Positions 665 to 32,541 of a stretch of 38,561 bases of DNA are shown piece after piece. The stretch spans positions 1-38,561 of the forward strand of contig JAKBZR010000023.1 of the NCBI GenBank assembly GCA_021842405.1. Direction: 5' to 3'. Source of the stretch: a bacterium (GTDB lineage Bacteria; Armatimonadota; Chthonomonadetes; Chthonomonadales; JAMCWF01). Within the stretch, counting starts at the first letter, position 1. Every line of letters begins with the position of its first letter. The notes below the pieces were generated by a model. It was not told the DNA's origin and ran no database searches. It was given only the letters and a program-made list of their open reading frames with translations. The position numbers were made by a program, and so were the translations under genes.

Positions 665-1012
665 TTGCAAGTTCTAATCATCCTGAACGACCCGCCTTAC
701 GGCACCGAGAGGAGCTATAACGGGTTACGCCTCGCCACCAATCTGATAAAGCAGGAAGAGACGGAGCTAACCGTCTTTTTGATGGCGGAGGCCGTATTTT
801 GCGCAAAGACCGGCCAAACGACGCCGGATGGCTACTACAATCTGGAGCGGATGTTGAAGCCGATTGTGCGGCGGGGCAAGGTTCTGCTTTGCGGCACCTG
901 TATGGATGCCCGCGGATTGGCCGAATCCGAGTTGGTGGAGGGTGCGCGCCGCAGCACAATGGTGGAGCTGACGGCGCTGACCCTATCGAGCGACCGGGTG
1001 CTAGTGTTTTAA
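665..1012 (+). CDS. DsrE/DsrF-like family protein
   Basis: 115 residues starting at TTG; the N-terminus MQVLIILNDPPYGTERSYNG is the usual DsrE start, and no ATG lies nearby. The leader just upstream has an AAAGGAAAGG ribosome-binding site. The motif LCGTCMDARGL near residues 79-89 carries the conserved cysteines of the small DsrE/YchN fold. Members take part in sulfur-relay or oligomeric sulfur-binding roles, and single-domain members beside flavoprotein sulfide oxidoreductases are common. The gene follows the SQR-like gene, so a shared sulfur role is likely, but the exact partner is unknown. The stop codon TAA at 1010-1012 is the outermost triplet of the inverted-repeat element that follows, so the C-terminus may have been set by that insertion. 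Confidence 0.85.
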   Translation: MQVLIILNDPPYGTERSYNGLRLATNLIKQEETELTVFLMAEAVFCAKTGQTTPDGYYNLERMLKPIVRRGKVLLCGTCMDARGLAESELVEGARRSTMVELTALTLSSDRVLVF

Positions 1013-1124
1013 GTGGATGTTGAAAATATTGTAATACCCATCGGATCGTCATTCCGCCTGCCTGCGGTAGGCAGGCGGGAATGACGAAGCGGTAGGATTC
1101 AGCGATTTTTTCAACAACCTCTTA
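1010..1124. repeat. MITE-like/REP-like palindromic element supplying both flanking stop codons
   Basis: About 115 bp. The left end TAAGTGGATGTTGAAAA (1010-1026) and the reverse complement of the right end, TAAGAGGTTGTTGAAAA (1124-1108), match at 15 of 17 positions. The centre at 1046-1087 is an almost perfect hairpin with arms TCGTCATTC(C)CGCCTGCCT and a GCGGT loop. The left end TAA is the dsrE stop, and the right end TAA, read on the minus strand, is the stop of the next convergent gene. The hairpin probably also acts as a two-way terminator. No transposase is seen, so this would be a non-autonomous element. Confidence 0.75.
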
Positions 1125-3218
1125 GGGCGGGCCGGGCCATTTCTGATGAACCAGCGAGGCACAGTAACCGCACTCATTTGTAACCTGGGCCATCATCTCC
1201 TTGCGCGCTACCGCTTCTTGCTTCGCGGTATAGAGAACCGCTCCCCCGTATGCGATCATAAACAGGCCGGCGATCAATATGCCGGAACGACTTAGACCGG
1301 TTACCAGCCCCACTGAGACCGGAACTCGATGCCTCCAGGATGTGATCATTGTCATAACAAAATACAAGAAAAGAGCGGCGAACAGCGCCGTAAAGATACA
1401 AAACAGTAACCAAGCGAGTGGTTGCTGAAATGAGATGGACATCAAGGGCTCGGGAATAAGACGAGGCTGCTGGAGAATGATCGCCATGGATACCACAACG
1501 CCGGCCACCGATATCGCAATTACCCCCAAGCCGACGATCAGTCCGGGAATTGATAGTACAAATATGATACCGCTGCGCCACAGATTCTTTCGTTTCAATA
1601 CTACGCCTACCAGCACGATAATCAACCCCAGAATAATCCAAATCTTAATTAAATTCACCGCGCTTATTAATTTGAATGAAAGCACTGCCGCCGTAATGAT
1701 CGCGGCGAGAAAACCGCCCCCGATTGACCAGCGGACATAAGCCGCCAGCGGACGCTTTTCCTGTATTGAATTCGCGCGAGACGCTGCCGTCGCAATGCCC
1801 GACAGCGCCAGCATCCAGAATGCGATCATTAAAAATGCGATGTCCACTCCCCAGTTATAGGTTAAACTGAGGAGCTGATGGAGTTGGGAGAACATCATTG
1901 TCTTTGTCCAGCGGCGCGCGATAGATAATGCAAGTTGACGGTCAGCGTTTTCTTTCTCCACCCGTTGAGCCTCTTTTGGCAGTCCGATCTTTCTTAAGTG
2001 AGCGGCATACCGCCGATAAATGCCGGAATTCAAGCGGTCTCGCTCTGCGGGTGTGAGATTCATTCTCTTGCTTTGCGGAACGGAGATCCCGTTCACTTGG
2101 TAAGCGCCGATGGCTGAGATCGCTATCCCAACCAGTGAGTGCATCAGGGGGCCTGGCTGAGCCCGCATCAGCCCGCCTAATTGGATCACGGCGTCTCGGA
2201 TTGCCGCCCCTTTCAGCGGGTACCCGCGCTGTTCCGCCTTGATCGCCTCGGAATGGGCGATTCGGGCTAATGAGCGTAGCGATGCATAGACGGAAAACCG
2301 ATATGTTACAGTCATAGCTGACGACCCAGCAATCGCTAGCGCGCTGCTTCGGCCAAAGGCAAGCCGAGCCAGCCGAATCTCGCCTAAATTCACATCGGTG
2401 GAATAGTCCTGCCACTTCGAGCAGTGGCTGATACGCTCCAGCATTTTCAACCCGGCGGCTTTTTGTCCTTTGGTAAACCGGATCATCGCTCGAATGGCCG
2501 GAAAGAACGCATTTTGGGGGTCTAACTTTTCGCCTTTGGCGGCCAGCTTATCCAGCCAGGCCAATATGTAGGGGTTCGGCGGCGGCATTCTCAATTTCGG
2601 AACCGGCACCTCAATGCCCGCCTTATTCTCGGTATACCCCCACTCCGGATTGACCTGGTCCGGGGACGCGAACTCCAAAATGGTTGCGTACAAGGCCGGA
2701 TTGTTTGGAAATCGAGTCAAGAGGTTGCACAGTCGCCGGAGCGCGCCGGATTCCATTGCGGTTACGTTTTCATTGATGGACGGGGCTGGGGGCGTGTAGC
2801 CGAATCCCTTACCGGGTGGCGGCTTCGAAGAGGGAGGCTTTTGCATGGGGTTGATTGAGCCGTGGGGAGGCATTATGGCGCCAGGAGGGGGCATCGTAGA
2901 ATAGGGGTAGCCGGCGCTTTTCCAGGCACTGGGGAAAATTCCGATCCCACTGAAGACATCTCCCACCTGTATCTGGTAGTCATTCGGATAGCGCTCAGCC
3001 ACTCTTACCAGCGCCCTGGTGTAATAAGGTGGGGGTGATTTCAAGGAGGCCCATGGGGCGCTGGTGAGCGCCGGCAGCGTTTCCGGTGACCGCAACAAAA
3101 CGGCGGTCCGTAATTGGTTTAAAACCAGCCAGCGGGTCATCGGCAAGATCAGAACGACCAGAAAGACAACCGCCGCAACTCCTAACGGTAAGTAACTCAA
3201 ATTCCCCCGTTTTGCCAT
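1122..3218 (-). CDS. Large membrane protein of unknown function
   Basis: 698 residues; I do not recognise the family. The start ATG at 3218 has an AAAGGTGG ribosome-binding site. One hydrophobic helix near residues 9-31 is followed by a long non-membrane part of about 400 residues with a Pro-rich stretch near residues 105-145 (MPPPGAIMPPHGS, PPSSKPPPGKG). That part looks helical and may be repeat-like. The last 230 residues carry several hydrophobic helices, the final one before a short tail containing CGYC, a possible metal or redox pair. A sensor, secretion or assembly role is possible but nothing shows it. It lies upstream of and in the same direction as nothing obvious; clpX ends about 300 bp away. 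The stop codon lies in the palindromic element described at 1010-1124. Confidence 0.8.
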   Translation of the reverse strand: MAKRGNLSYLPLGVAAVVFLVVLILPMTRWLVLNQLRTAVLLRSPETLPALTSAPWASLKSPPPYYTRALVRVAERYPNDYQIQVGDVFSGIGIFPSAWKSAGYPYSTMPPPGAIMPPHGSINPMQKPPSSKPPPGKGFGYTPPAPSINENVTAMESGALRRLCNLLTRFPNNPALYATILEFASPDQVNPEWGYTENKAGIEVPVPKLRMPPPNPYILAWLDKLAAKGEKLDPQNAFFPAIRAMIRFTKGQKAAGLKMLERISHCSKWQDYSTDVNLGEIRLARLAFGRSSALAIAGSSAMTVTYRFSVYASLRSLARIAHSEAIKAEQRGYPLKGAAIRDAVIQLGGLMRAQPGPLMHSLVGIAISAIGAYQVNGISVPQSKRMNLTPAERDRLNSGIYRRYAAHLRKIGLPKEAQRVEKENADRQLALSIARRWTKTMMFSQLHQLLSLTYNWGVDIAFLMIAFWMLALSGIATAASRANSIQEKRPLAAYVRWSIGGGFLAAIITAAVLSFKLISAVNLIKIWIILGLIIVLVGVVLKRKNLWRSGIIFVLSIPGLIVGLGVIAISVAGVVVSMAIILQQPRLIPEPLMSISFQQPLAWLLFCIFTALFAALFLYFVMTMITSWRHRVPVSVGLVTGLSRSGILIAGLFMIAYGGAVLYTAKQEAVARKEMMAQVTNECGYCASLVHQKWPGPP

Positions 3219-3259
3219 TTCCGGCCACCTTTCCGCTTAAAACCATATCAATTGAAAGA

Positions 3260-3400
3260 GTTCAGTTCTACGGGAATAATTTACGACAATATTGAATGCC
3301 CCCCAGCCTGGCCTCCCCCCTCGTAGGGGGTAGAGGCGATCCTCTGTGGTCGCCCGACATTCAGCCGGGTTCAAACAATCAACGTTGTTCTCAATAAACT
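3260..3400. repeat. Degenerate member of the GTTCAG inverted-repeat family
   Basis: The left arm GTTCAGTTCTACGGGAATAA at 3260-3279 continues with TTTACGACAATATTG, close to the arm of the element at 7501-7636. A short hairpin CCCCCTCGTAGGGGG follows near 3315-3330, and then a second palindromic piece, GAGGCGA ... TCGCCC, near 3332-3356. A clear right arm ending in CTGAAC is missing, so this is a decayed or truncated copy. It fills most of the gap between the unknown membrane protein gene and the end of clpX. Confidence 0.55.
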
Positions 3401-7039: not shown

Positions 7040-7114
7040 TGGAGCGGGAGACGGGTTTCGAACCCGCGGCCTTCTGCATGGCAAGCAGACGCTCTACCAC
7101 TGAGCTACTCCCGC
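7040..7114 (-). tRNA. tRNA-Gly(GCC)
   Basis: Cloverleaf on the minus strand. The acceptor stem GCGGGAG/CTCCCGC is fully paired, the D stem is GCTC/GAGC, the anticodon stem TCTGC/GCAGA encloses loop TTGCCAT with anticodon GCC, and the T arm GCGGGTTCGAACCCGT is present. The 3' CCA is encoded (7042-7040). It lies 35 bp behind tRNA-Leu(UAG), and both are probably cut from one transcript. Confidence 0.97.
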
Positions 7115-7149
7115 ATGGCTTCGTACTTGATAATTGGCGGCGTATCATC

Positions 7150-7231
7150 TGGGCGAGAGGAGACTCGAACTCCTATGCCTTGCGGCACTGGCTCCTAAGG
7201 CCAGCGTGTATACCAATTTCACCACTCGCCC
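7150..7231 (-). tRNA. tRNA-Leu(TAG)
   Basis: A long class II tRNA. Acceptor stem GGGCGAG/CTCGCCC, anticodon stem CTGGC/GCCAG with loop CTTAGGA (anticodon UAG, reads CUA), a variable arm TGCCGCAAGGCA, and T arm GGAGTTCGAGTCTCC. Discriminator base A is followed by GAT, so CCA is not encoded, unlike the other three tRNAs in the window. First gene of the tRNA pair, behind the promoter at 7316-7345. Confidence 0.97.
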
Positions 7232-7352: not shown

Positions 7353-7486
7353 CGTAACAGTTCAGTTTTATGGGAATGATTTTCGTTCGCCCCCACCCCA
7401 GCCCTCCCCGCAAGCGGGGAGGGTGTTGATTATTGCTATAGGGGTAAAGCCTGCTGCCTAAATTACCCAGAGAACTGAACTCATTC
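7353..7486. repeat. GTTCAG family inverted-repeat element, copy 1
   Basis: Core 121 bp at 7360-7480: left end GTTCAGTTTTATGGGAATGA, right end CCCAGAGAACTGAAC. The centre CCCTCCCCGC AA GCGGGGAGGG (7402-7423) is a strong GC hairpin. It differs from the copy at 32415-32535 at only 6 of 121 positions. TTTTCG occurs on both sides (7347-7352 and 7490-7495), a possible degenerate target duplication. No coding potential. Confidence 0.85.
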
Positions 7487-7500
7487 CAATTTTCGAAACA

Positions 7501-7636
7501 GTTCAGTTTTCGGGGAATGATTTATGGCAGCATTGGTCGTCCCCCAGTCCCTCTTAATCCCCTCCCCCGTTTACGGGGGAGGGTTAGGGTGGGGGTGCAT
7601 CCAATATGGTCGTAAATGATTCCCACAGAACTGAAC
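7501..7636. repeat. GTTCAG family inverted-repeat element, copy 2, full palindrome
   Basis: 136 bp with 36-bp terminal inverted repeats (7501-7536 and 7601-7636) matching at 27 of 36 positions; ends GTTCAGTTTTCGGGGAATGA and, inverted, GTTCAGTTCTGTGGGAATCA. A central hairpin CCTCCCCCGTTTACGGGGGAGG lies at 7561-7582. The arms are more distant from copy 1 than copy 1 is from the 32 kb copy, so this is a separate sub-family. It is a MITE-like form without a gene. Confidence 0.85.
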
Positions 7637-7640
7637 TCTT

Positions 7641-7673
7641 ACCCTCCTGCCTAAATTACCCAGAGAACTGAAC
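7641..7673. repeat. GTTCAG family, solo right end
   Basis: GCCTAAATTACCCAGAGAAC followed by TGAAC equals the right end of copies 1 and 3. With copies 1 and 2 it makes a 320-bp composite between the divergent tRNA and ndk units. It could be the remnant of an older copy that copy 2 entered. Its tail GTTACA is in the position of a -35 box for ndk. Confidence 0.7.
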
Positions 7674-7674
7674 T

Positions 7675-7702
7675 GTTACACCGCCGGTAGATGGCGTATA
7701 AT
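7675..7702 (+). promoter_or_regulatory. Probable ndk promoter with -35 inside a repeat end
   Basis: A perfect -10 TATAAT at 7697-7702. The best -35 at a proper distance is GTTACA (7675-7680, 16 bp spacer, 4 of 6 consensus), which directly continues the repeat end ...CTGAAC. Transcription would start near 7709, giving a leader of about 93 bases. The -10 is convincing, the -35 is weak. Confidence 0.55.
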
Positions 7703-16910: not shown

Positions 16911-16929
16911 CATTCCCGCAGAACTGAAC
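16911..16929. repeat. GTTCAG family, solo right end, left of the GC-rich islet
   Basis: ATTCCCGCAGAACTGAAC matches the right arm of copy 2 (ATTCCCACAGAACTGAAC) at all but one position. No left arm or central hairpin is nearby, so this is a remnant. A similar end lies beyond the islet at 19750-19767. Confidence 0.65.
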
Positions 16930-16945
16930 TATTACTTTTTCGAGA

Positions 16946-19710: not shown

Positions 19711-19769
19711 CCGGTAGGGGCGATTCATGAATTGCCCCCACCGAAATACAATTCCCACCGAATTGAACT
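19711..19769. repeat. Palindrome plus GTTCAG-family right end, right of the islet
   Basis: A palindrome CGGTAGGGGCGATTCATGAA continuing TTGCCCCCACCG spans 19711-19742 (one mismatch and one wobble). It is followed at 19750-19767 by ATTCCCACCGAATTGAAC, which differs slightly from the right arm at 16912-16929. The two ends point the same way and enclose the islet. No clear left arm is visible. Confidence 0.6.
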
Positions 19770-19825
19770 CTTTCGCCGGAGGTTGCCAATATGCCGTCTC
19801 AGCGCCTCAAAATACGTGTCGAGGG

Positions 19826-26971: not shown

Positions 26972-27046
26972 GGCGCCATCGTTCAGCGGATAGGACAACG
27001 GGTTTTCATCCCGTAAACCGGGGTTCGATTCCCCGTGGCGCTACCA
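26972..27046 (+). tRNA. tRNA-Glu(TTC)
   Basis: Acceptor stem GGCGCCA/TGGCGCT (one G-U pair at the end), D stem GTTC/GGAC, anticodon stem ACGGG/CCCGT with loop TTTTCAT (anticodon UUC), T arm CGGGGTTCGATTCCCCG. CCA is encoded. Placed 12 bases behind a consensus -10. Confidence 0.97.
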
Positions 27047-27087
27047 ATTGATGCGGTGGATTTTTCTATCGGGTGAGACATTAAAGT

Positions 27088-27172
27088 GCCGAGGTGGCGG
27101 AATTGGCAGACGCGCACGTTTGAGGGGCGTGTGCCGCAAGGCATACGGGTTCAAGTCCCGTCCTCGGCACCA
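27088..27172 (+). tRNA. tRNA-Leu(GAG)
   Basis: Class II tRNA. Acceptor GCCGAGG/CCTCGGC, anticodon stem CACGT/GCGTG (one T-G pair) with loop TTGAGGG (anticodon GAG, reads CUC/CUU), variable arm TGCCGCAAGGCA, T arm CGGGTTCAAGTCCCG, CCA encoded. 41 bp behind tRNA-Glu. Confidence 0.95.
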
Positions 27173-32408: not shown

Positions 32409-32541
32409 GTAACAGTTCAGGTTTGCGGGAATAGTTTTCGTTCGACCCCACCCCAGCCCTCCCCGCAAGCGGGGAGGGTGTTGATTATTGCTATAGGGGT
32501 AAAGCCTGCTGCCTAAATTACCCAGAGAACTGAACTCATTC
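32409..32541. repeat. GTTCAG family inverted-repeat element, copy 3, with 8-bp direct repeat
   Basis: The 121-bp core at 32415-32535 begins GTTCAGGTTTGCGGGAATAG and ends CCCAGAGAACTGAAC; only six positions differ from copy 1. GGAATTAA occurs exactly at 32401-32408 and at 32542-32549, the form expected of a target-site duplication. Central hairpin CCCTCCCCGC AA GCGGGGAGGG. It lies upstream of dut. The near-identity across 25 kb implies recent movement or gene conversion. Confidence 0.88.

Follow-up and report, generated by a model that had tools for sequence, protein, structure and literature searches.

A probable IS5-type MITE between the stop codons of two convergent genes in an Armatimonadota genome

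The locus and its parts

The DNA analysed here is a stretch of 38,561 nucleotides from a bacterium of the phylum Armatimonadota, referred to below as the window. At its start is the tail of one gene, followed by a forward-strand gene (665–1012) and a convergent gene on the reverse strand (1122–3218). The first encodes a DsrE-family protein of 115 residues, which matches Pfam PF02635 over its full length (E = 1.2e-22). The second encodes a 698-residue protein of unknown function, for which a Pfam profile search gave no match. The sequence between the two genes is a near-perfect fold-back (DNA fold z = −7.6), and the reading frames of both end in TAA stop codons placed exactly at the two outer edges of this repeat-flanked palindrome: the DsrE stop is formed by bases 1010–1012, and the stop of the 698-residue protein by bases 1124–1122 read backwards.

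On the basis of terminal repeat copies, length class and fold, the intergenic sequence is described here as an IS5-type MITE of 109 bp (1013–1121) without an open reading frame of its own. Its left terminal inverted repeat, GTGGATGTTGAAAAT (1013–1027, forward strand), fits the degenerate consensus of the family repeat GAGGTTGTTGAAAAA at 14 of 15 positions, while the right one (1107–1121, read on the reverse strand) is exactly GAGGTTGTTGAAAAA. In the centre is a core palindrome, CGTCATTCC...GGAATGACG (1047–1086), and the whole element has an RNA fold z of −8.6. It is bounded on the left by TTAA (1009–1012), assigned as a target duplication from the family pattern and the end of the reading frame at 1012 and containing the DsrE stop codon as its final three bases, and on the right by TTAG (1122–1125), whose first three bases read on the reverse strand as the TAA stop of the 698-residue protein. 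Each stop codon is thus wholly inside one target duplication and outside the element.

A sequence-only reading had proposed a mobile-like element of 115 bp (1010–1124), with terminal repeats starting at the two TAA stops. The repeats are real and both stops abut their outer edges, but the TAA triplets lie outside the terminal repeat, and pairing of the target duplications across the family corrects the boundaries to those given above.

The window holds a second MITE-like family, with ends (GT)AACAGTTCAGTT.../...AACTGAACTGTT. Its two 133-nucleotide copies (7354–7486 and 32409–32541) are 95% identical, and related pieces at 3253–3304, 7494–7679, 16912–16935 and 19751–19774 are diverged or abutting; at locus L002 the two families are directly adjacent, with one copy of each. 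Elsewhere in the window, adjacent tRNA genes form one pair on the reverse strand (7043–7231) and another on the forward strand (26972–27169).

The repeat family, its target duplication and its transposase

BLAST gives 58 matches to the element in the host genome. When up to 3 mismatches are allowed, the 18-mer TAAGAGGTTGTTGAAAAA matches there at 236 places and its reversed control at 9. More than 100 copies of the family are present in this host, and the suggestion that the element is mobile-like is borne out. Among 41 genomes searched, matches to the full element were found only in the host and in a congener, the MAG Armatimonadetes bacterium FK_Sedi_B_Bin.64 (G001/G041).

Repeat ends were listed in 1.38 Mb of host sequence (39% of the genome, on contigs picked for terminal repeat matches). 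Paired copies fall in a length class of 106–120 bp. The flanking TA is preceded by C or T in 88% of ends and followed by A or G in 84%, with YTAR in 107 of the 144 ends that have NTAN flanks. The 4 bp outside GAGGTTGTTGAAAAA are identical in 19 of 35 left-right pairs, against a mean of 7.9 on shuffling and with none of 10,000 shuffles as high. The signal is present on both sides of the TA: 27 agreements against 17.6 expected at position 1 (p < 1e-4), and 23 against 14.8 at position 4 (p = 0.002). Rare flanks also agree between ends (GTAG/GTAG, CTAT/CTAT, ATAA/ATAA). Since the 4-bp flanks are duplicated across the family, the target is YTAR and the window element is bounded at 1013–1121. These are short sequences with terminal inverted repeats and no internal gene, dispersed in many copies with target duplications, as expected of MITEs, and the 4-bp YTAR duplication places them in the IS5 type (YTAR group). 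In the window copy the two duplications, TTAA and TTAG, are one transition apart, so that its own duplication is inferred from the family pattern.

The same ends are found on a complete insertion sequence in another phylum. A Terriglobia MAG contains an IS of 1125 bp (L214) with ends GAGGTTGTTGAAAAA / GAGCTTGTTGAAAAT and YTAR flanks TTAG/CTAG. Its transposase belongs to the IS5 family (NF033581, 253 bits against a cut-off of 140; Pfam DUF772 and DDE_Tnp_1), and the window family thus shares its terminal repeat with an autonomous IS5-family element. From these ends and this target we infer that an IS5 transposase moved the window copy.

The host genome is a draft, 97% complete, in which repeats may be missing; it has no PF01609 match over the cut-off and no match to the L214 transposase. 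There is likewise no PF01609 match over the cut-off in the congener, and, one partial match in the order aside, neither the congener nor the order yielded an L214-type transposase gene. Repeated insertion sequences are often lost from draft assemblies, so that the absence of a mover from this one is no proof that there was none. The only DDE_Tnp_1-like match in the host (L165; G000 C89:13934–14089) was rejected as an autonomous source: it is a broken transposase in several frames, below the family cut-off, and no such ends were noted. Two long pairs of terminal repeats with matching flanks (C132, 1389 bp; C75, 1751 bp) were rejected as autonomous copies, having only ordinary genes inside.

An alternative is that the element is a Tc1/mariner or IS630-type MITE that duplicates only TA, the terminal A or G of the element then completing the stop codon. 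The TA is indeed the most constant part of the flank, and an empty site would read alike under this model. It is nevertheless very improbable, because the bases on either side of the TA are also duplicated, no IS630 (DDE_3) transposase is found in the host genome, and an IS5 has these ends.

Stop codons as insertion sites

The sequence-only reading held that the stop codons at the ends of the element are its own, and that it took the place of the 3′ ends and stops of both genes. That both stops abut the element, and that stops are found at the ends of many copies, agrees with this view. However, the stops belong to a 4-bp duplication derived from the host, and removal in silico of the element and one duplication leaves both in position: the forward strand then reads ...GTG TTT TAG GGC..., and the reverse strand ...CCG CCC TAA AAC....

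Orthologues give the same answer. They end where the two window proteins do, or 1–2 residues away. DsrE orthologues, 55% identical, have the same terminal VF-stop (...VVF-TAA in G005 and G015, ...VLVF-TAA in the window). The 698-residue protein has relatives in 31 of 41 genomes, several of which align up to residues 696–698; the orthologue in G003 ends ...EWPGEVP-TAG and the window protein ...KWPGPP-TAA. As judged from these alignments, the C-terminus of neither window protein has been replaced, and the expectation that insertion at gene tails is neutral for the proteins holds. Among the relatives examined the two genes are nowhere neighbours, and there is no same-species empty site for the window locus.

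Empty sites do exist for other copies. Of the host genes queried that have an element at the stop, three have usable orthologues in the congener, and all three have the same stop codon with the element absent. The clearest example is C135, where the host has AAGTTTTAA[element]TTAGCGCC (in a longer reading of the far flank, AAGTTTTAA[element]TTAGCGCCCC...) and the congener AAAATTTAGGGTC, the flank resuming at an equal distance. The congener genes corresponding to C12 and C31 also stop at the same codon without an element. Orthologues with the same stops and no element, which had been named as the observation that would speak against replacement, have thus been found, and replacement by stops of the element's own is extremely improbable. 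At C135 the gene-side duplication is TTAA and the far copy TTAG, as in the window copy; in both places the mismatch is drift that preserved the stop.

We consider it highly probable that 1013–1121 is an orphan IS5-type MITE with a YTAR target, which duplicated a stop site shared by two genes in both directions. YTAR is palindromic, and each YTAR reads TAA or TAG in one frame per strand. As a stop on both strands, it matches precisely the 4 bp in which two convergent genes overlap tail to tail. The DsrE and 698-residue genes presumably overlapped in this way, in TTAG, before the insertion. An IS5-family transposase acting in trans would have cut a YTAR tetranucleotide, which would have been duplicated on insertion; here the target would be TTAR, in which the DsrE stop (TAR on the forward strand) and the other stop (TAA on the reverse strand) overlapped. 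The duplication would then leave each gene with a complete stop codon of its own, the two separated by 109 bp, and would alter neither protein. Because an insertion at such a site leaves no trace in the protein, copies would survive there.

A search of the genome for further copies, with tabulation of their ends, had been suggested, and other copies also have a neighbour's stop at their ends. Host genes beyond the window were called with a simple home-made codon-based caller (1040 genes, 84% coding). With these calls, 25 of 144 element ends are at distance 0 from a stop codon, whereas every other distance below 60 nucleotides has at most 2. Counted by element, a gene stop codon lies in the target duplication of 24 out of 108, compared with 9.9% (276/2793) expected from non-coding YTARs (p = 1.2e-4), and one of these 24, the window copy, has stops at both ends. 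Within 100 nucleotides of gene tails, YTARs that form stop codons are occupied more often than downstream YTARs (odds ratio 2.9, p = 0.0016). An extended target motif (S-C-Y beside YTAR) was rejected as the cause, as it raises the expectation from 9.9% to 10.6% only, which leaves the 22% seen as a roughly twofold excess.

This residual excess bears on a further possibility, namely that besides the target motif the position at stops is selected, the element acting as a terminator or mRNA 3′ end. The strong hairpin formed by the whole element on both strands is in keeping with such a role, as is Oryzomonas (described below), where the end scored as left lies at gene tails in 61 cases and at gene starts in 16. 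However, a scan of 900–1300 for intrinsic terminators (a GC stem followed directly by an unpaired T-run) found none: the T-run is about 20 nucleotides beyond the inner stem, and in the fold it pairs with the A-run of the other terminal repeat. The inner hairpin had been read as a two-way terminator, and that role is unsupported; the element may have a weaker or factor-dependent effect on termination. Nor do the two subterminal types show a clear orientation bias at host stops (14 A, 8 B), being about as frequent there as elsewhere in the host genome, and purifying selection against insertions upstream of genes would explain the excess with no function at all. Selection for such a function is therefore considered unlikely.

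A genome-wide scan for YTARGAGGTTGTTGAAAAA identified ends in Geobacter, Oryzomonas, Acidobacteria, Nitrospirae, cyanobacteria and others, many being elements of 105–260 bp with matching YTAR flanks. Oryzomonas japonica, of the Geobacter group and thus of a phylum unrelated to that of the host, has a family with a different core, whose left end is at distance 0 from a stop in 33 of 79 copies; the gene-tail test gives an odds ratio of 3.1 for stop-codon YTARs (p = 0.009). At two copies (L287 and L344) the stops of both convergent neighbours are inside the duplications. Five such copies were counted at first, reduced to two once gene calls were required. The C-terminus of the transglutaminase next to L344 is preserved both in relatives that have the element and in those that lack it. 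No empty site was found for the L344 gene pair: where a relative shares the neighbour, the element is there too, and other relatives have a different neighbour.

Two variants were seen in this group. Three Oryzomonas copies (L289, L303 and L309) directly adjoin a TGA stop (distance 0) and have the flank CTGA, which would fit a TAA or TAG in the duplication that drifted to TGA and so remained a stop. In a relative of Oryzomonas (L351), a short remnant, TTAG-CAGGTTGTTGAAAAACAGCCTG-TTAG, follows the transglutaminase stop; it seems to be what a deletion left of an element, namely its two ends.

The arithmetic of the target offers a simple reason why an element can live without cost at gene ends: one sequence, YTAR, combines a palindrome, a stop on two strands and the footprint of a 4-bp convergent overlap. 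The rule could be applied to any genome with IS5-type elements, and overlapping genes would be separable in one step. For annotators, a stop codon beside a repeat is not in itself a sign of truncation.

Core palindrome and comparison with known systems

The motif CGTCATTCC occurs about 35 nucleotides inside the terminal repeat in 112 of 144 ends (at most 1 mismatch). Its exact copies in the sample number 202, with 121 inside a repeat end, whereas about 11 in all are expected from composition. Judged by the published description, CGTCATTCC and its mirror copy GGAATGACG look like a head-to-head pair of CGTC-tagged REPs, a type described without a dedicated transposase (PMC3733652). The difference is that the window core sits inside IS5-type terminal repeats. 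Several other copies (L012, L016, L019, L022 and others) have a longer core with the classic CGTC-REP sequence GCGAAAGCGGGAATCCAG, which indicates that single REPs and the MITE core intermix.

We tentatively suggest a wider picture, though we think it somewhat more likely to fail than to hold: stop codons, including shared convergent stops, might in general be safe landing sites for YTAR-target IS5-type MITEs of different phyla, preferred beyond the effect of the motif, with the duplication separating overlapping pairs and CGTC-type palindromes carried as cargo. If true, the last point would provide a mover for REPs said to lack one; the findings thus have a bearing on how CGTC-tagged REPs are mobilised.

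The window element is an IS5-type MITE in kind. It resembles the IS5 family in its 4-bp YTAR duplication, YTAR being also the target of E. coli IS5 (PMC10359306), and in terminal repeats identical or nearly identical to those of the L214 insertion sequence (NF033581). It differs in having no transposase, in its length of 109 bp, and in that no partner was found in its own genome. RU-1/ERIC, Correia, RUP and QMITE2 elements are similar in size (about 100–170 bp), terminal repeats, hairpin, and frequent location in intergenic or 3′ regions (PMC2759123, PMC2229807, PMC5896051). RU elements duplicate TA (PMC2759123), and insertions of RU-1 and QMITE2 at gene ends extend proteins, whereas the window family leaves the protein end unchanged.

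In the open-access literature we found no description of stop-codon residence of IS5-type elements through YTAR duplication, and did not find one of a YTAR stop provided for each of two convergent genes. The positional precedent is the GTAG-tagged REPs. These are also short palindromic repeats with ends often at the stop codons of flanking open reading frames, to which they supply a TAG (PMC3733652). They go with RAYT/IS200-type transposases, and it is the repeat end itself that supplies the TAG. The window family was not assigned to them, since its flank is a variable YTAR duplication and not a terminal GTAG owned by the repeat. In the window family the stop is the host target duplicated on insertion, it can be TAA as well as TAG, and two genes can be served by one element.
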